Virus record (IMG/VR): IMGVR_UViG_3300021963_000316
Location: 1 to 37,740 of that record
Length of the DNA stretch: 37,740 nucleotides
DNA from: a virus
Reading direction: 5' to 3' (one strand)
The notes beneath the pieces were generated by a model. It did no database searches, was not told the origin of the DNA, and was given only the letters and a program-made list of their open reading frames with translations. Both the position numbers and the translations under genes were made by a program. This document shows positions 1-8,422 of this stretch, one piece after another; position 1 is the stretch's first letter; each line of letters starts with the position of its first letter.

Positions 1-2550
1 AATAAGAAAGATTGGTATAAAAATAACGCATTATATTGGGGTATTTTGGATTCTAGTGAATCAGCTGCGATTACCGCTGACAGAAATAGCCAAAATTTAA
101 CTGGCTATGGTGCGGCAAACCCAGTTTTTGTTGACGCATATGAATTACCAATTGGTATACCTGTTAGTGATAGAACAAATAATATCCTATTAAATGAATT
201 TACATACGATGAAACAACTGATACCTACACAGGTTATGCTTTTGCTTTATATGCGTATGATATAGCTGCAACTAGTGCATCTACTTATACTGGTAAAACC
301 AAAGTTGATGTTTATGAGTTTCAAGCCACACCAAATTCAAAATACCACAAAAAATTAGCGGCTACTTTAAGAAGTAGAGGTGAGTATATCACAGATAGTT
401 TAGGTTTCCACGTTGATTCAACTACTGTTGGTTATTCACAAATTGCTACAGCACAGACTAATCCTTTTGCCACATTTGAGATTACAGGTGCAACAACTGG
501 TGGTACACAATTTACTTACAGCGTTTCTTTAGATAAAACTAAGAAAAACTATATTAAAAATGTATTAGGTACTGGGGCTTACGATAAAGACACTTATTTA
601 TTTGCTGAGGAAGTTTTTGATTCAACACTTAAAAAGGGTTGGGCTTTTGGTGAGATTAAAGGATTACATTATGAAGTATTACCAATTAATAACTGGGATC
701 ACTTCAAATTCCAATTCCAATCACCAGTAACACCATTCTTTGTTTCTGAATTAAGAGGTGGTTTACCACAAAGATTATTTAGATTGATTTCTATCTCTGA
801 TGGTGGTAACGCTAACACGGAAATTAAAACATCTATTGCAAATGTTGACTTGGATAAAAAAACATTTGATTTGTACATCAGATCATTTGGTGATTCAGAT
901 AAATCTCCTGTTATCTTAGAAAGATTCTTAGGTTTATCAATGGATGAAACATTAGATAATTATATCGGTAGAAAAATAGGTACTATTGACAACAAATATC
1001 CTTTAGTTAGTTCATATGTTGTTGTTGATGTTGCTGAAAAAGCACCAAAAGACGGGGTTCCAGCTGGTTTCGAAGGTTATGAATTTAGATCATACGGAAC
1101 TGGATTAACTGAATCCGATTATTGTGGTGTAATTGAATTACCATACAAAACAAAATACTATTCAGCTGGTGAATTAATTGTTAACCCACCATACGCATTA
1201 CCAATTTATTCAAACGGTGATAAAATTAAGAAAGTTTACTTAGGATTCACTGATAACGAATATGGTTTTGACGCTGATTTATTGAAGTTTAAAGGTAAAG
1301 TTTCATTAACAGGTGATAACGCATATAATGATGGTGTTGATTGGTCAACTAAAACTAAAGGTTTCCACATGGATATCAATGCAAGTTCAATTGTTGATGC
1401 CAATGGTAATGTTGTTTTCTCAACTGGTTCTGGTAGCTTTACCGATCCAACTGTGATTGCATCTACCCCTTCTCACCCTTACTATGACATCAGAACTAGA
1501 AAGTTCACAGCTTTATTCTCTGGTGGATTTGATGGTTGGGATATCTATAGAGAGCAAAGAACAAATACTGATGATTACAAAATCGGTAGAAATGGTTTCG
1601 TTAGATCTGGTTTCGATACTTTTACAAGTGTTGAGTACTCTGAGACTTTTGGTACTTCAGATTACTACGCTACATTGTATGGTATTAAAACATATGAAAA
1701 TCCAGAACAAACATCAATTAACATCTTAGCAACCCCAGGTATTGATATCATCAATAACACTGAGTTGGTTAGAGATACAATTGAGATTGTTGAAGAGAAG
1801 AGATTCGATTCAATTTACTTACCAACATTACCTGATATCAAGTTGATTGGTAATAACAATGCGGCTAATACCGATGAGTGGTACTACCCTGGTGATATTA
1901 TTGATTTATTAGATTCAACTGAAATTGATTCAAACTATACTGCGGTATACTACCCATGGATCCAAATTTCAGACGTTGAAAATAATGCAAACTTATTTAT
2001 CCCACCAACGGCAGAAGTTGTTAGAAACTTAGCATTTACGGATAATGTAGCACATCCTTGGTTCGCAACAGCGGGTTACACAAGAGGTATTGTAAATTGT
2101 ATTAGAGCACGTATTCCATTAGATCAAGAAAGTAGAGATACATTATATCCAGGTAGAATTAACCCTATTGCTACATTCTCTGATGTAGGAACGGTTATCT
2201 GGGGTAATAGAAACTTACAAGTTAGAGATAGTGCAATGAACAGATTGAACATTAGAAGATTATTGTTACAAGCAAGAAAATTAATCGTTGCCGTTGCTAA
2301 CAGATTATTGTTCGATCCAAATGATGCACAAGTTAGAAGTCAATTCTTATCATTGGTAAATCCAATCTTGGATAATATCAGAAAAGAAAGAGGTTTAACA
2401 GACTTTAGAGTTTCATTGGTAAATGATGTTGAAGATAGCGACAGAAATACTTTAAGAGGTAAAATCTTCGTTAAACCAACTCCAACATTAGAATTCATCG
2501 AATTAGAGTTCGTTGTAACACCAACAAGCGTATCTTTTGATAGTCTATAA
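1..2550 (+). CDS. Contractile tail sheath protein (gp18-like), 5' partial
   Basis: The reading frame is open from base 1 and ends at a TAA at 2548-2550, so the first methionine lies outside the window; 849 codons are visible. The C-terminal part has the conserved layout of phage sheath proteins: a region with RGIVNCIRARIPLDQ, then NPIATFSDVGTVIWGNR, then the NIRRLLLQARK helix and a final beta segment ending in IELEFVVTPTS. That C-terminal domain forms the inner sheath layer and is the best conserved part of gp18-like proteins. The N-terminal and middle parts are Thr/Gly/Asp-rich and are probably the variable outer domains. The sheath contracts around the tail tube during infection. The tail tube gene follows after a 349-nt non-coding gap, the usual sheath-tube order. 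Identification is firm; the total length is unknown because the start is missing. Confidence 0.93.
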   Translation, partial: NKKDWYKNNALYWGILDSSESAAITADRNSQNLTGYGAANPVFVDAYELPIGIPVSDRTNNILLNEFTYDETTDTYTGYAFALYAYDIAATSASTYTGKTKVDVYEFQATPNSKYHKKLAATLRSRGEYITDSLGFHVDSTTVGYSQIATAQTNPFATFEITGATTGGTQFTYSVSLDKTKKNYIKNVLGTGAYDKDTYLFAEEVFDSTLKKGWAFGEIKGLHYEVLPINNWDHFKFQFQSPVTPFFVSELRGGLPQRLFRLISISDGGNANTEIKTSIANVDLDKKTFDLYIRSFGDSDKSPVILERFLGLSMDETLDNYIGRKIGTIDNKYPLVSSYVVVDVAEKAPKDGVPAGFEGYEFRSYGTGLTESDYCGVIELPYKTKYYSAGELIVNPPYALPIYSNGDKIKKVYLGFTDNEYGFDADLLKFKGKVSLTGDNAYNDGVDWSTKTKGFHMDINASSIVDANGNVVFSTGSGSFTDPTVIASTPSHPYYDIRTRKFTALFSGGFDGWDIYREQRTNTDDYKIGRNGFVRSGFDTFTSVEYSETFGTSDYYATLYGIKTYENPEQTSINILATPGIDIINNTELVRDTIEIVEEKRFDSIYLPTLPDIKLIGNNNAANTDEWYYPGDIIDLLDSTEIDSNYTAVYYPWIQISDVENNANLFIPPTAEVVRNLAFTDNVAHPWFATAGYTRGIVNCIRARIPLDQESRDTLYPGRINPIATFSDVGTVIWGNRNLQVRDSAMNRLNIRRLLLQARKLIVAVANRLLFDPNDAQVRSQFLSLVNPILDNIRKERGLTDFRVSLVNDVEDSDRNTLRGKIFVKPTPTLEFIELEFVVTPTSVSFDSL

Positions 2551-2899: not shown

Positions 2900-3388
2900 A
2901 TGGCTAACTTATTAATGAAAATGCCTGTTCCTTACGAACCAAAAAAGCAGAACAGGTTTATTTTAAGATTCCCTAGTTCGTTAGGTATCAACGAATGGTT
3001 TGTTATAACAGCTTCAAGACCTAAAATTGCAATTGGTGAGGTTGAGATTCCATTCTTAAATACTTCAACATGGGTTGCTGGTAGATTTACTTGGGATGCT
3101 ATTGACGTTACCTTTAAAGATCCTATCGGTCCTTCAGCTGCACAAGCGTTAATGGAATGGGTTCGTTTACATGCTGAGTCAGTAACTGGTCGTATGGGTT
3201 ATGCCGCTGGTTATAAAAAAGACATTGAATTGGAAATGTTAGATCCAACAGGTGTTGTAGTTGAAAAATGGATTCTTCAGGGTTCAATGTTAACTAATGT
3301 TGACTTTGGTTCATTAGATTACAGTGCTGAAGATATCGCAGAGATTACAGCTACCATTAGAATGGATAGATGTATTTTGGTTTACTAA
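2900..3388 (+). CDS. Tail tube protein (gp19-like)
   Basis: The 162-aa protein matches the length and character of T4 gp19-type tube proteins. It starts with a short N-terminal segment, then the RFILRFPSSLGINEWFV strand pair, a central VAGRFTWDAIDVTFKDP region and a C-terminal ILQGSMLTNVDFGSLDYSAED segment, ending in a hydrophobic strand. These proteins form stacked hexameric rings that make the conduit for DNA. The gene sits directly after the sheath gene and ahead of the chaperone and tape measure genes, the standard tail order. The ATG at 2900 follows an A-rich leader (AAAATTATG) without a Shine-Dalgarno sequence, and two TATTTATA elements lie upstream. A terminator follows, so it is probably transcribed alone or as the last gene of its unit. 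Confidence 0.92.
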   Translation: MANLLMKMPVPYEPKKQNRFILRFPSSLGINEWFVITASRPKIAIGEVEIPFLNTSTWVAGRFTWDAIDVTFKDPIGPSAAQALMEWVRLHAESVTGRMGYAAGYKKDIELEMLDPTGVVVEKWILQGSMLTNVDFGSLDYSAEDIAEITATIRMDRCILVY

Positions 3389-3415: not shown

Positions 3416-3460
3416 ACCCGATTTGCTTACCATAAGAACAGCAATCGGGTCTTTTTTTTT
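3416..3460 (+). terminator. Intrinsic terminator after the tail tube gene
   Basis: Arms 3416-3427 and 3440-3450 form an 11-bp stem (ACCCGAT paired with ATCGGGT plus TGCT/AGCA, one bulged T) with a 12-nt loop, followed by C and nine T's. It also abuts the 3' end of the convergent minus-strand gene, so it may insulate the two units from each other. Confidence 0.85.
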
Positions 3461-3857
3461 AACCGTATATTAGGCCGTACTTTGTAATAAAGTTATTTAT
3501 TTTTTCGGTCAATAGTACTTGGTTTTTCAATTCATGCTCCCAAACAATCAATAGATTGTAGTATTTATCAAACTTAACCAGTTTAAGTTTATGTTGATCG
3601 TTTTTAAGATTGTTTTTTTGTATTTTATATTTTGGTATTGGGTTATGTGTTTTACAGCAATGATAAAAACACCCATGGGTTTCAACTAATATATTGTATT
3701 TTATTAACAGGAAGTCAAATTCCTTACCTTTGAACATATAATGTTGCTCGTAGTTAATTTTCATCTCGTCTAATATTGCTGAAAATTTTACTTCTAAATT
3801 AGATGTGCCACTCATCTCACCCAACATTTTACCAGTTTTACTCTTTTTTTTAGCCAT
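3459..3857 (-). CDS. Vsr-like (EDxHD) endonuclease, probable free-standing homing nuclease
   Basis: This 132-aa protein is the only convincing minus-strand gene in the window. It has the Vsr fold signature: an early Glu in SNLEVKF (E22), Asp in KEFDFLL (D48), then ETHGCFYHCC (H61, H66), a basic KNNLKND segment (D87) and the closing LLIVWEHEL strand. Vsr proteins nick at mismatches, but T4-like phages also carry Vsr-related EDxHD homing endonucleases, which share these residues and often sit alone between structural genes. Its reverse orientation and its position splitting the tube-chaperone pair fit a mobile insertion. The protein starts at the ATG complementary to 3855-3857 with a Lys-rich N-terminus, possibly a DNA-contacting tail. 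A bona fide repair nuclease cannot be excluded, but a homing role is more likely in this context. Confidence 0.75.
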   Translation of the reverse strand: MAKKKSKTGKMLGEMSGTSNLEVKFSAILDEMKINYEQHYMFKGKEFDFLLIKYNILVETHGCFYHCCKTHNPIPKYKIQKNNLKNDQHKLKLVKFDKYYNLLIVWEHELKNQVLLTEKINNFITKYGLIYG

Positions 3858-3996: not shown

Positions 3997-4749
3997 ATGG
4001 ATACAATGATGGAACCAGCACATGATGTGATTGCACTACCTTCACAAGGTAAGTTCTACAAAAATAAAAAATCAACAGTTAAAGTTGCTTATTTAACAGC
4101 CGCTGATGAGAATATCTTAACATCACCAAACTTACTTCAAAATGGTAAGGTTATTGACGTTTTATTAGATAGAAAAGTTATTGACCAGGAAATTAAAGCT
4201 AGTCAGTTGCTATCTGGTGATAAAAATGCAATTCTATTCTTTTTGAGATCAACTGGGTATGGTGAAATGTATACCGTTGAGGTTACAGACCCAAAAACTG
4301 GTAAACCGTTTGAAACGGAAATTGATATTAGTCAGTTCCAACCTAAAGAAATTACTCTAGAGCCAGATGAAAATGGTGAATGTGGGTTTGTTTTGCCAAA
4401 GGGTAAGAATAAAATTAAATTCAAATACCTAACAGCTGAAGAAGATGAAAAGTTAGTGAGAGAAGATGAAGCTAGACGTAAAAAAATGGGTCAAAACGCT
4501 ATCTCACAATTAATGACTATGAGATTAGCTGCACAAATTTGTGAAATTGATGGTCTTAGAGATCGTGGTCAAATTCAACAATTTGTTGATAATATGAGTG
4601 TGATGGATTCTGGTTCTCTTAGAAAGTATATCAATGATAACGAACCTGGTTTAGACCTTAACGTATCAATTGAAGCACCTAGTGGTGAATTTTTTTTTGG
4701 TGAACTTCCAATTACCACAAAATTTCTTTGGCCCTTCCTTGACCTATAA
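3997..4749 (+). CDS. Tail-assembly chaperone (gp26-like), short form
   Basis: The 250-aa product begins with a segment typical of T4 gp26-type proteins (Pfam 'T4 baseplate' family): IALPSQGKFYKNKKSTVKVAYLTAADENILTSPNLL, followed by the DVLLDRKVID and LLSGDKNAILFFLRSTGYG motifs. T4 gp26 and gp51 are needed for hub assembly but are absent from the virion. Position between tube and tape measure is where long-tailed phages encode tail chaperones that coat the tape measure before the tube forms. The short form ends at TAA 4747-4749, right after ITTKFLWPFLDL. A CCC-T slip site just before the stop (4732-4735) can join it to a conserved C-terminal region in the +1 frame, giving about 310 aa. The ATG at 3997 has an A-rich leader and a TATTTAAATA element upstream. 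Confidence 0.8.
   Translation: MDTMMEPAHDVIALPSQGKFYKNKKSTVKVAYLTAADENILTSPNLLQNGKVIDVLLDRKVIDQEIKASQLLSGDKNAILFFLRSTGYGEMYTVEVTDPKTGKPFETEIDISQFQPKEITLEPDENGECGFVLPKGKNKIKFKYLTAEEDEKLVREDEARRKKMGQNAISQLMTMRLAAQICEIDGLRDRGQIQQFVDNMSVMDSGSLRKYINDNEPGLDLNVSIEAPSGEFFFGELPITTKFLWPFLDL
4732..4735 (+). other. Probable +1 programmed frameshift site (CCC-T)
   Basis: In the zero frame the codons are TGG CCC TTC CTT GAC CTA TAA. If tRNA-Pro slips from CCC to CCT at 4732-4735, reading continues TCC TTG ACC TAT AAG and gives ..KFLWP-SLTYKKDVLYEF... CCC-U is a recognised +1 slippery tetranucleotide. Slipping here keeps the FLWP segment in frame with the extension. A T9 run at 4690-4698 is a second possible slip point, or a sequencing-error site. 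Confidence 0.6.
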
Positions 4750-4930
4750 GAAAGATGTGCTTTATGAGTTTTACATTCTTATAAAACATGGTAATTTTTC
4801 ATATGGGGATGTTTTACATATGCCAGTATTTGAGAGGAGAGCTTTTATTGAAATTTTAATGGATGAAAACAATAAAGTAAAGGAACATAGAGAAAGAGAA
4901 GCCGCAAAAGCTAATAGTAAACGTAAATAA
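4736..4930 (+). CDS. Frameshifted C-terminal extension of the tail chaperone
   Basis: This frame encodes about 64 residues, SLTYKKDVLYEFYILIKHGNF and then SYGDVLHMPVFERRAFIEIL with a charged Lys/Glu-rich tail. It reads as coding sequence, yet has no good start of its own: the only upstream candidate is a TTG at 4670, and translation from there would run the conserved end of the short form out of frame. Joined at the CCC-T site (3997..4734 plus 4736..4930), it makes a protein of about 310 aa. This resembles the G/GT pair of lambda and its counterparts, in which a minority frameshift product carries the part that binds the tape measure or tube. A strong terminator follows. The alternative is a separate small gp51-like protein or a sequencing error restoring one frame. 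Confidence 0.65.
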   Translation, partial: SLTYKKDVLYEFYILIKHGNFSYGDVLHMPVFERRAFIEILMDENNKVKEHREREAAKANSKRK

Positions 4931-4933
4931 AAT

Positions 4934-4964
4934 AAAACCCACGATTTTCACGTGGGTTTTTTAA
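4934..4964 (+). terminator. Intrinsic terminator after the chaperone
   Basis: A perfect 10-bp stem (4934-4943 with 4951-4960, AAAACCCACG/CGTGGGTTTT) and a 7-nt loop are followed by a T run. The stop codon is only 3 nt upstream of the stem. Confidence 0.9.
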
Positions 4965-4994: not shown

Positions 4995-5567
4995 ATGTCA
5001 ATTGAGAAAATAATAGAACGTATTAAAATGATTGAAAACAATGATTTTAATATAACGGAAAATACTTTAGATATTGATACCGTAAAAACAATTAGAGCGG
5101 GTAAAAATTCATCCAATTCAGCTGAAAGGATTGCTAGGGATACATTAGGTGGCTTTGGTGACGATGGCACAACATATTCTAGTTCCGACTCTAGTTCAGA
5201 CTCATCTGGCAATTATATAGCGTTACCAAGTCAATTTGAAAAACAAGTTCAACCAATTTTAATACTGGTTAAAAAATATGAATTAACCGATGATTTAAAT
5301 AGTAGCGGAAAACCAGTATTTGGTTATTCAAAACCTGTTTTTAAAGGTGGTAGAAACAATACTTTAGTTTTACAAAAAAGTGAAATAGTCCAAATTGAAT
5401 TTATTGATGATTCATTATCTAAATTAAAATCTATTAATGTTAAAAAATATAAATCACCAAATTCTAACGTTAATGCTTTTTTTAATGAGGTACTAAAAAA
5501 TAAAGACACATACGGTGTAAAGACAGTAACTAACACCCAAAAGTTTATAGTTATTAAATTCATATAA
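4995..5567 (+). CDS. Hypothetical protein upstream of the tape measure gene
   Basis: The 190-aa protein is not recognised. It has a charged, probably helical N-terminus, a Ser/Asp-rich linker around residues 55-72 (SSSDSSSDSSG) and a C-terminal half rich in beta-forming residues (NNTLVLQKSEIVQIEFIDD, FIVIKFI). Its TAA overlaps the tape measure ATG by one base (TAATG at 5565-5569), which suggests translational coupling and a related role, such as a tail assembly factor or minor tail protein. The start at 4995 follows the AAAATTATG leader typical of this phage. No catalytic motif or membrane segment is visible. Confidence 0.7.
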   Translation: MSIEKIIERIKMIENNDFNITENTLDIDTVKTIRAGKNSSNSAERIARDTLGGFGDDGTTYSSSDSSSDSSGNYIALPSQFEKQVQPILILVKKYELTDDLNSSGKPVFGYSKPVFKGGRNNTLVLQKSEIVQIEFIDDSLSKLKSINVKKYKSPNSNVNAFFNEVLKNKDTYGVKTVTNTQKFIVIKFI

Positions 5568-8422
5568 TGGCTCAAGGCGATTTATTTAAAGGTTTTCTTA
5601 GTAGTACTGGCGCTCTTCAGGAAGCGTTGGATAAAGGCGTTATTTCCGCTGAAAAATTCAGTAGTATCCAAAATGAGTTATTGGAGCAATCTGAAAATAT
5701 GGCCAAGGTTAGAAAGAACATGTGGAAAGCTGATTACAGAGGTCAAAAAGTAACCGAGAGAATGGCTAGCACCATGAGAAAAATGGCTGAACACACTAAA
5801 AAAATTGCTCAAATGAAAAAAGAGCAATTGGTCACCGAAAAACAGTTAGCTAAGATTGATGCTAAAATAAAAGATTCTAGAACTAGCCCACAAGATATTA
5901 AAGTTTTAACCAAAGAATACGACCTTATTAAATTAAAATATTTAAAAAATGCTGAATCATTAAAAATGATGAAGAAAGCCACACCAGTTTTAGGTAAATT
6001 AGGTAGTATTGGTGGCGGTATTGCTAGCGCTTTAGGTGCTTTAGGTGGTGTTATTCCAATAATAGGGGGTATTATATCTGGTTTAATGAAAGTGGGTTCT
6101 GTTTTACTTAGTTGGATTGTGGCGCCATTTAAAAAAGGTTTTAATTTATTCTTACAAATGCAAAGCCTTGTTGGTAATTTAGCTGCTGATATTGGTATGA
6201 CCGCAGGGCAATCTAAAAACCTAATGAATAACATTGTTGGTATGACATTGGCTGCAATGAAGTTCGGTGGTTCAATGGAAGATGTTATTAGTATCTACAG
6301 ACAATTTAGTTCAATGACTGGTAAAAACATGGCGTTTAACGCTGATGAGATTGCCGCTATTGTTGAATTAGGTAAAGGTACTGGTTTAGGTGTTGATGGA
6401 GCCGCTGAAATGGCCGCTAGCTTTGAAAATATTGGTATTTCATTAGGTAAAACCGTTAAGTTAACAGATAAAGCTAGAAATATCGCTGCTAGATATAATG
6501 TTAATGTCACTGATGTTTTAAAATCATATAGAGGTTTAGTTGAAAGTTTAAGTGGTGTTGGTTTTGCTAAAGGTTTAGATAATTTAACAAAAATAGCCGC
6601 AAAAGCTCAAGCTATTAGATTTGATATTGTTGGATCAACAAAAGCGTTTACAGACGCATTCTTTGACCCAGAAAAAGCTGTTGAGGCTTCAGCCAAAATG
6701 CAATTATTAGGCGGTAAATTCGCACAAAGTTTTGGCGACCCAATGCAATTAGCATTCGAATCAATGAATGACCCAACAGCACTAGCTGAAAAATTTGCTA
6801 AAACTTTAGAAGGTGTTGTGGCTAAAGATAAAATGGGTAATTTCTTTATTCCACCAGCCGATAGGAAAATGCTAAAAATGGCTGCTGAAACTTTGGGTCA
6901 AGATTATGAAATGGCAACTAAATCAGCGCTTGAACAAGCTAAGATTACTGACAAAATGGTTGCTTTAAGTAAATCTGGTTTTAGTATGATGGGTATATCT
7001 GAAGAAGATAAACCAGCTTTAGCTTCATTAATGAAGATGAATAAAAATGGTAAGTATGAAATCCAAATGTCTGATGGTACAACAAAACTACTTGAAAATA
7101 TTACGGATAAAAACCAATTAAAAGCCATTTTAGATAATAGAAAGAAAAACGATTTAGCGGCTGAAGGTCGTATGAATTTAATGGAAAGGTTAGAAAATAT
7201 AGTAAATCGATTCACACTTGGTTTTACAAACGTTTTTAATAAGATTTTCACAAATATGGATTTTGAAAACTTTTTAAGTAAAGTTGAAGAATTAGGTACT
7301 TCATTAGCTCAGGTAATATTCCCAGCAATTGACAAATTATTGAATAATAAGGGTGCTATCTCTGGTATTTTTCAAAAAATATTGGATACGGCAACTAGTA
7401 TTGTATCAGCAATAACAAAAATATGGGAAGGCGATGGTACGCTCATGGATAAAATAACGGGCACTATTGGTACGTTAATCATTAAATTATTTGAAGTTGT
7501 TAAACCATACATACAAGTTGCTATGGGTAAATTACTTGAAATTATAGGTGGCGCCTTACCTCAATGGTTAGGTGGTAATAAATTAAAGAACGCTGGTTTA
7601 AATATGCAAGCCAGTGGGGTGGCTAATGATAAAACTGGTGTTTTATCAGGTCTTTATGGTGGTGCAACACCTGGCATGAGTGGTGACGCTAACGCTGGAC
7701 TTAGTTTTACTCAAGGTATTGGTAAATATGGAAAAGCGGGTTATGGTGGCGCAAAACTTGCCACTATGGGTGCTAAATATGGTATGGGTAGAGGTATGGC
7801 TGCTTTAGGTGGTACAATGATTAGTAAAGGTGGTGCTGGAATGGGTAAAATGGGTTTAAAAATTGGTATGGCTGGTGAAAAAATGGCGGGTAAGGCCATG
7901 GCCAAAAGAATACCAGTTTTGGGTTCATTAGTTAGTTTAGGTTTTGCTATAAGTGATGCCATGGAAGGTGATTGGGCTGGTGCTGGTATGCAAACATTAT
8001 CTGGTGCCGCTGGTTTATTAGATTTAGTTGCACCTGGTGTTGGTACGGCTGCGTCATTAGCAATTGATGCTGCTGACGGTTATAGAGAAATGGGTGGGTT
8101 CCAAGATGGTGGAATTGCCATAGCCAAAAATGGTCAATTATATCACGGACACATGGCTAAAGGTGATATGGTTAATTTCATAGACCAAGCCGCAGCTGAC
8201 AGAGCTGGGTCTGGTATGGGTGGTTCTAGCTCAGGATCAATCACACACGGAGGAACAATAAAATTAGTATCAGATGATGGAAAAGTTTTAACTTGGGATC
8301 AAATGTACGCTTCGAGAGATATGATAGGTGGTCGTATGGCATCAATTAGCGAAGGATACAAAGGCGGTTTTGGTAATTATCAAAACTCAAATATATCACC
8401 AATACAACCATTGATGGTTTAA
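5567..8422 (+). CDS. Tail tape measure protein
   Basis: The 951-aa protein has the usual tape measure build. The N-terminal part, about residues 35-140, is Lys/Glu/Met-rich and coiled-coil-like. It is followed by a long hydrophobic Gly/Ile/Leu/Val segment at about 145-188 (GGVIPIIGGIISGLMKVGSV), a helical middle, and a Gly/Ala/Met-rich region at about 690-860. The C-terminal FQDGGIAIAKNGQLYHGHMAKGDM resembles the tail end of many tape measure proteins. It sits inside the growing tube, sets tail length and is ejected into the host envelope, where the hydrophobic segment may help pore formation. The usual rule of about 0.15 nm per residue predicts a tail near 140 nm. The preceding gene overlaps its start by one base, and the next gene starts 13 nt after its stop. 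Confidence 0.88.
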   Translation: MAQGDLFKGFLSSTGALQEALDKGVISAEKFSSIQNELLEQSENMAKVRKNMWKADYRGQKVTERMASTMRKMAEHTKKIAQMKKEQLVTEKQLAKIDAKIKDSRTSPQDIKVLTKEYDLIKLKYLKNAESLKMMKKATPVLGKLGSIGGGIASALGALGGVIPIIGGIISGLMKVGSVLLSWIVAPFKKGFNLFLQMQSLVGNLAADIGMTAGQSKNLMNNIVGMTLAAMKFGGSMEDVISIYRQFSSMTGKNMAFNADEIAAIVELGKGTGLGVDGAAEMAASFENIGISLGKTVKLTDKARNIAARYNVNVTDVLKSYRGLVESLSGVGFAKGLDNLTKIAAKAQAIRFDIVGSTKAFTDAFFDPEKAVEASAKMQLLGGKFAQSFGDPMQLAFESMNDPTALAEKFAKTLEGVVAKDKMGNFFIPPADRKMLKMAAETLGQDYEMATKSALEQAKITDKMVALSKSGFSMMGISEEDKPALASLMKMNKNGKYEIQMSDGTTKLLENITDKNQLKAILDNRKKNDLAAEGRMNLMERLENIVNRFTLGFTNVFNKIFTNMDFENFLSKVEELGTSLAQVIFPAIDKLLNNKGAISGIFQKILDTATSIVSAITKIWEGDGTLMDKITGTIGTLIIKLFEVVKPYIQVAMGKLLEIIGGALPQWLGGNKLKNAGLNMQASGVANDKTGVLSGLYGGATPGMSGDANAGLSFTQGIGKYGKAGYGGAKLATMGAKYGMGRGMAALGGTMISKGGAGMGKMGLKIGMAGEKMAGKAMAKRIPVLGSLVSLGFAISDAMEGDWAGAGMQTLSGAAGLLDLVAPGVGTAASLAIDAADGYREMGGFQDGGIAIAKNGQLYHGHMAKGDMVNFIDQAAADRAGSGMGGSSSGSITHGGTIKLVSDDGKVLTWDQMYASRDMIGGRMASISEGYKGGFGNYQNSNISPIQPLMV

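Follow-up and report, generated by a model that had tools for sequence, protein, structure and literature searches.

The window, i.e. the whole analyzed stretch of 37,740 nucleotides of viral DNA, very probably encodes a T4 gp26-type tail assembly chaperone that is made in two forms by +1 programmed ribosomal frameshifting, as judged from the sequences of this gene and its relatives. While most frameshifted tail chaperones shift by -1, an apparent conserved +1 site is found here in a large, mostly uncultured group of T4-related phages. The following features of the window are relevant for this finding:

46..2550, + strand: tail sheath protein (phrog_23, E 4.5e-48)
2900..3388, + strand: tail tube protein (phrog_4542, E 7.5e-27)
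3997..4749, + strand: frame-0 ORF, 250 aa, putative short form of the tail assembly chaperone (TAC-N), T4 gp26-type (PF12322, phrog_150, AlphaFold model)
4690..4698, + strand: T9 run, Phe-Phe-Phe in frame 0 (conserved in the window clade)
4723..4734, + strand: proposed +1 slip site TTT-CTT-TGG-CCC (near-invariant motif, codon bias, re-pairing)
4730..4930, + strand: extension in the +1 frame, 66 aa and the stop if CUU.U is the slip codon (conserved throughout the +1 relatives)
4934..4960, + strand: intrinsic-terminator-like hairpin, 4 nt past the +1 stop (-13.3 kcal/mol, z -4.5)
5567..8422, + strand: probable tape measure protein (synteny with Flavobacterium phage immuto, LIS04 and SP-15)

Two frames of the chaperone gene and their surroundings

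The 250-aa protein of frame 0 matches phrog_150 (baseplate hub) with an E-value of 1.3e-11 and PF12322 (T4_baseplate) with an E-value of 1.2e-8 and 35.4 bits, which exceeds the curated cut-off of 24.5; by this profile match it is a member of the T4 gp26 family. Its C-terminal end reads ..ITTKFLWPFLDL*, with the stop at 4749. A first-pass annotation had proposed that coding-like sequence without a usable start follows in the +1 frame, and this agrees with our analysis: the frame is conserved and free of stops from about 4655 up to the stop at 4928-4930 (translation ..FFGPSLTYKKDVLYEFYILIKHGNFSYGDVLHMPVFERRAFIEILMDENNKVKEHREREAAKANSKRK*), and no ATG is present near the overlap in the +1 ORF, the first one being located at 4820 within the conserved domain. 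The only start-like codons of this ORF near the overlap are TTG at 4670 and 4739. In mononucleotide-shuffled sequence, 59 open codons beyond the frame-0 stop are expected for a +1 frame with a probability of about 0.002, and among the frames of the segment only the +1 frame shows positive coding log-odds. A test for a -1 site, comprising a slippery heptamer and an open -1 frame, was negative; in the window the remaining alternative frame closes at 4784. For the C-terminal extension, 12 of 39 members yielded matches to DUF6760 (best 2.9e-5). We propose that the extension represents the C-terminal (T-like) domain of a long form, TAC-NC, of about 310 aa overall; a +1 shift product of this size had been suggested beforehand and is supported by the two conserved frames, the short form comprising 250 aa. 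The CCC-T tetranucleotide and the T9 run had also been placed exactly, at 4732-4735 and 4690-4698. Since the near-identical contigs L001-L004 (99% identity, with names that point to other metagenome datasets) share both the T9 run and the frame break, an assembly error is unlikely.

As for G/GT-type chaperones, the gene is located between the tail tube gene, recognized by profile, and the probable tape measure gene, recognized by synteny only. No Pfam match was obtained for the ORF at 5567..8422, and a tape measure protein is annotated at the equivalent place in L022, L188 and L190. The identity as tail assembly chaperone that the gene had been given at the outset is supported. The terminator-like hairpin behind the +1 stop indicates that the transcript takes in the +1 part. 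Between the tail tube and chaperone genes, a 132-aa ORF on the minus strand (3459-3857) shows a weak match to Vsr-like endonucleases (E 0.006).

We further compared two AlphaFold models, the short form of the window with pLDDT 94 and a -1 relative with pLDDT 86, to known structures. With VIA-align, the best match of the window model was the HK97 chaperone 2ob9 (Z 5.0, next 2.8), and the -1 relative matched 2ob9 (Z 7.7), 3fgx (7.3) and YqbN (3klu, 7.1), which we take to be an XkdN-like chaperone, followed by a value of 4.8. These Z values, all of them below the safe level of the tool, are suggestive of a chaperone fold of the models but not proof, and the Z of 5.0 alone is weak. Foldseek returned no significant PDB match, and no PDB relatives were found by sequence.

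Conservation and substitution pattern of the +1 arrangement

Four viral-contig scans and a single genome-contig scan yielded more than 200 relatives; no DNA-level relatives of the window were found in the phage collection. The +1-type comparison set comprised 152 relatives forming 81 clusters of less than 70% identity, 80 of which are readable to the end. The two-frame arrangement was present in 18 of the 19 first-round loci, and the other one (L013) ends before the gene does. Beyond the frame-0 stop, the +1 frame stays open for at least 42 codons in all 80 testable clusters (median 71); the other alternative frame reaches 40 codons in only 3 of 81 clusters. In 46 independent pairs, variability peaks at position 3 of frame 0 upstream of the motif at the proposed slip site and at position 3 of the +1 frame downstream of it, and the motif between these two substitution regimes is nearly invariant. 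This switch is the strongest single evidence that sequence comparison provides for one protein spanning both frames. The two coding frames, their conservation and the frame switch at the motif are established by this comparison, and, as in G/GT-type genes, the locus has an overlapping frame that is conserved and a site that is compatible with slipping.

The substitution pattern also bears on two explanations that do not involve a ribosomal shift. The +1 ORF might be a separate gene whose translation begins at its own start codon or by re-initiation, as 52 of 73 clusters have some +1-frame start codon close to the stop, an ATG in 25 of them, and small stand-alone ORFs are annotated here in databases (L022, L023, L190). 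The start codons, however, have no conserved place, 48 of the 73 clusters lack an ATG, the +1-type substitution pattern begins right at the motif and fusions in a single frame exist (L272, L289), and we regard a separate gene as very unlikely. The database entries concerned are pieces of the +1 extension listed in public records as stand-alone hypothetical proteins (L022:3327-3437, L190:3264-3383, L023:3228-3464).

Alternatively, RNA polymerase slippage at the T9 run (4690-4698) might give rise to a mixed mRNA population. A T9 run has the length needed for polymerase slippage, and each of the nine window-clade sequences in the comparison carries one, but outside this clade the +1 arrangement exists and T9 does not. 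Moreover, most substitutions in the stretch from T9 to the motif are silent in frame 0 and alter +1 residues. Since this stretch varies only as a frame-0 coding sequence would, the shift probably does not occur at the T9 run, which we rejected in this role as the substitutions follow frame 0 up to the motif; slippage of the polymerase is a highly improbable source of the second form. Some 25 nt lie between the run and the slip motif downstream.

The proposed slip site and the direction of the shift

The slip motif has the family consensus TTT-TTT-TGG-CCT, of which the window carries the variant TTT-CTT-TGG-CCC. Of the 81 clusters, 42 carry the consensus, 13 others TTT-TTT-CGN-CCT and four TTT-CTT-TGG-CCY, window included. 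Eight of the 81 clusters are outside the motif pattern. The non-fitting L188, L190 and L028 carry Phe-Phe variants in which a compatible codon is still present, and the group of L016, L017, L048, L051 and L054 possesses GTT-TTC or ATT-TTT-CTC at the junction, no ideal +1 tetranucleotide being found in L016 and L048 (GTT TTC). Some members of this group have very long N-terminal parts.

We compared the codons of the motif at the level of 70% clusters with locus-wide usage, the P values treating clusters as independent. The first Phe codon is TTT in 68 of 69 clusters (expected 50, P 2e-9), the second in 65 of 66 (expected 48, P 6e-9), and the Arg codon is CGN in 14 of 14 (expected 2.9, P 1e-11), with control codons near their expected usage; at 50% identity the bias of the Phe and Arg codons is weaker (P 0.01 to 0.04). 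All four third bases occur in the CGN of the motif, like in a frame-0 Arg codon, and AGR, the commoner choice, never does. A pyrimidine after UUU is a requirement for +1 re-pairing of tRNA-Phe, and +1 re-pairing is possible in all 73 motif-bearing clusters. The first codon alone is slip-competent in three clusters and the second alone in two; since some clusters allow only the first and others only the second, either Phe/Leu codon can probably serve. Part of the motif conservation may be explained by the overlap of two coding frames and not by slipping.

In the first-pass annotation, the slip had been assigned to CCC-T (4732-4735). The window does contain CCC.U, a codon well suited to +1 slipping, but CCCT occurs in only 6 of 142 relatives, the Pro codon of the motif being normally CCT among them, and L018 has no Pro codon at that place. 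The alignment of homologues that had been suggested as a check thus upholds the +1 overlap (80 of 80 clusters) and not the tetranucleotide, which we rejected as the conserved site; conservation and the capacity for re-pairing come together in the codon pair directly upstream. A slip at CCC-T appears improbable, though for the window taken alone it keeps a small probability.

The same frame would be reached by a ribosomal shift of -2 instead of +1. A -2 shift is known from a tail gene of phage Mu and sets a precedent, and -2 re-pairing on the Phe pair would be possible in 70 of the 73 motif-bearing clusters. L024, L026 and L111, however, permit +1 but not -2 re-pairing, and the CGN, TGG or TAY following the pair keeps a pyrimidine where +1 re-pairing takes place, for which a -2 shift would have no need, leaving -2 a very improbable direction. 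A -1 heptamer is present in one of the 73 motif-bearing clusters. The +1 direction originally put forward is supported by the +1 frame and the re-pairing, both without exception in the clusters considered (80 and 73, respectively).

No stimulatory RNA structure, pseudoknot or hairpin, is supported downstream of the site (z 0 to -1.2; consensus -2.7 kcal/mol), and the window clade has no SD-like stretch upstream of it. In the Arg-CGN clade, 42 of 43 sequences have GGGG ahead of the site; this stretch resembles an SD element and could help the shift.

For +1 frameshifting, we infer how the ribosome joins both parts, which codon slips, the ratio of the two forms and their role in assembly as follows. 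Most ribosomes would stop at 4749 and yield TAC-N of 250 aa, while a minority would slip one base forward with tRNA-Phe/Leu on UUU.C (4723-4726) or CUU.U (4726-4729), re-pairing in the P-site to UUC or UUU, respectively. The slipped ribosomes would read the +1 frame to 4930, and the resulting TAC-NC (about 310 aa) would possess a second domain. By analogy to lambda G/GT, the tape measure might be covered by many TAC-N and few TAC-NC, the latter recruiting tail tube subunits through their additional domain.

Relatives with other arrangements and known systems

In cyanophages, KVP40-type phages and several jumbo phages, the -1 frame holds the extension, and the sequence at the equivalent Phe-Phe is U UUU UUC or U UUU UUU. 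Of 74 viral loci retrieved with the cyanophage protein, 73 show this arrangement; in the remaining one, the -1 clade contig L272, a single frame contains both parts. In L289, an injection-system-like locus of Bacteroidota, one ORF matches PF12322 (2.3e-9) as well as DUF6760 (1.4e-6), so that relatives with both parts in one uninterrupted frame, which the first reading of the window had called for, exist in L289, L272 and T4 gp51. Among the Bacteroidota injection-system-like loci, gp26-like chaperone ORFs are accompanied by DUF6760 in a single frame (L289:871-1626) or in a separate overlapping frame (L288:647-1194). The DUF6760 part of L288 also weakly matches Phage_P2_GpE (E 0.009) and perhaps corresponds to the P2 frameshift extension.

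On the profile level, T4 gp26 and gp51 match each other at 98.9%, with an extra domain in gp51, and PF12322 covers residues 1-206 of gp26 and 1-201 of gp51. The gp51 profile matches the -1 fusion at 98.7% over nearly the full length, and the +1 and -1 profiles match at 99.9% when fused and at 97% for the C-terminal domains. Compared directly, the profiles of the +1 fusion and gp51 match weakly (55%); the link between them runs through the -1 clade. In the tree, gp26 and gp51 form a group (98/98) adjoining -1 members, and the +1 sequences need three changes on it, the tree being midpoint-rooted with long branches and giving at most a tentative order of events. We tentatively suggest, with some doubt, that UUU-(U/C)UU followed by UGG or CGN might be a self-sufficient bacterial +1 signal that acts without an A-site stop, SD-like element or RNA structure, and that the chaperone family switched between -1 and +1 more than once at a constant Phe-Phe.

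G-T frameshifting has been described as conserved in long-tailed phages except T4 (Atkins et al. 2016, PMC5009743). T4 gp26/gp51 are the TAC-N/TAC-NC of T4-like phages according to Vladimirov, Gautam and Davidson (2022, Virology 566:9-15) as cited by a 2025 paper (PMC12846349), and going by this citation the T4 link and the -1 version are already known. No report of the +1 version was found in an open-access library that does not include Vladimirov et al. 2022, and a widespread +1 version of the chaperone frameshift appears to be new. The natural set of strongly conserved +1 sites with a close -1 counterpart makes the determinants of shift direction testable within one gene family. For annotation, TAC-N and TAC-NC can be joined where databases now list a 'baseplate hub' protein and a hypothetical one, or lack the extension.

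When compared to known systems, the window protein shares its family with both T4 gp26 and gp51 (PF12322), and the C-terminal part of gp51 resembles the +1 domain. The contrast to T4 that had been drawn at first is borne out: T4 obtains the two forms from the paralogous genes 26 and 51, whereas the window has one gene with a +1 overlap. The gp26/gp51 pairs of the cyanophage/KVP40 type (S-CAM22, Vibrio phage TCU-VP04-AIR2) consist of homologous parts joined at the equivalent Phe-Phe, but by a -1 shift on U UUU UUC, in the opposite direction to the window. Lambda gpG/gpGT and HK97 gp13 are alike in position and in having a short and a frameshift-extended form, and the predicted fold may be similar to that of HK97 2ob9, whereas sequence similarity to the window protein is undetectable; lambda employs a -1 shift at a G-rich slip site. 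The +1 site of E. coli prfB (RF2), CUU.U to UUU, equals one of the two slip options of the window, but the window has neither an A-site stop codon nor an SD-like stimulator, and autoregulation is not implied. Finally, the haloarchaeal myovirus HSTV-2 has, by the description of Atkins et al. 2016 (PMC5009743), a very likely +1 frameshift in a like kind of gene.
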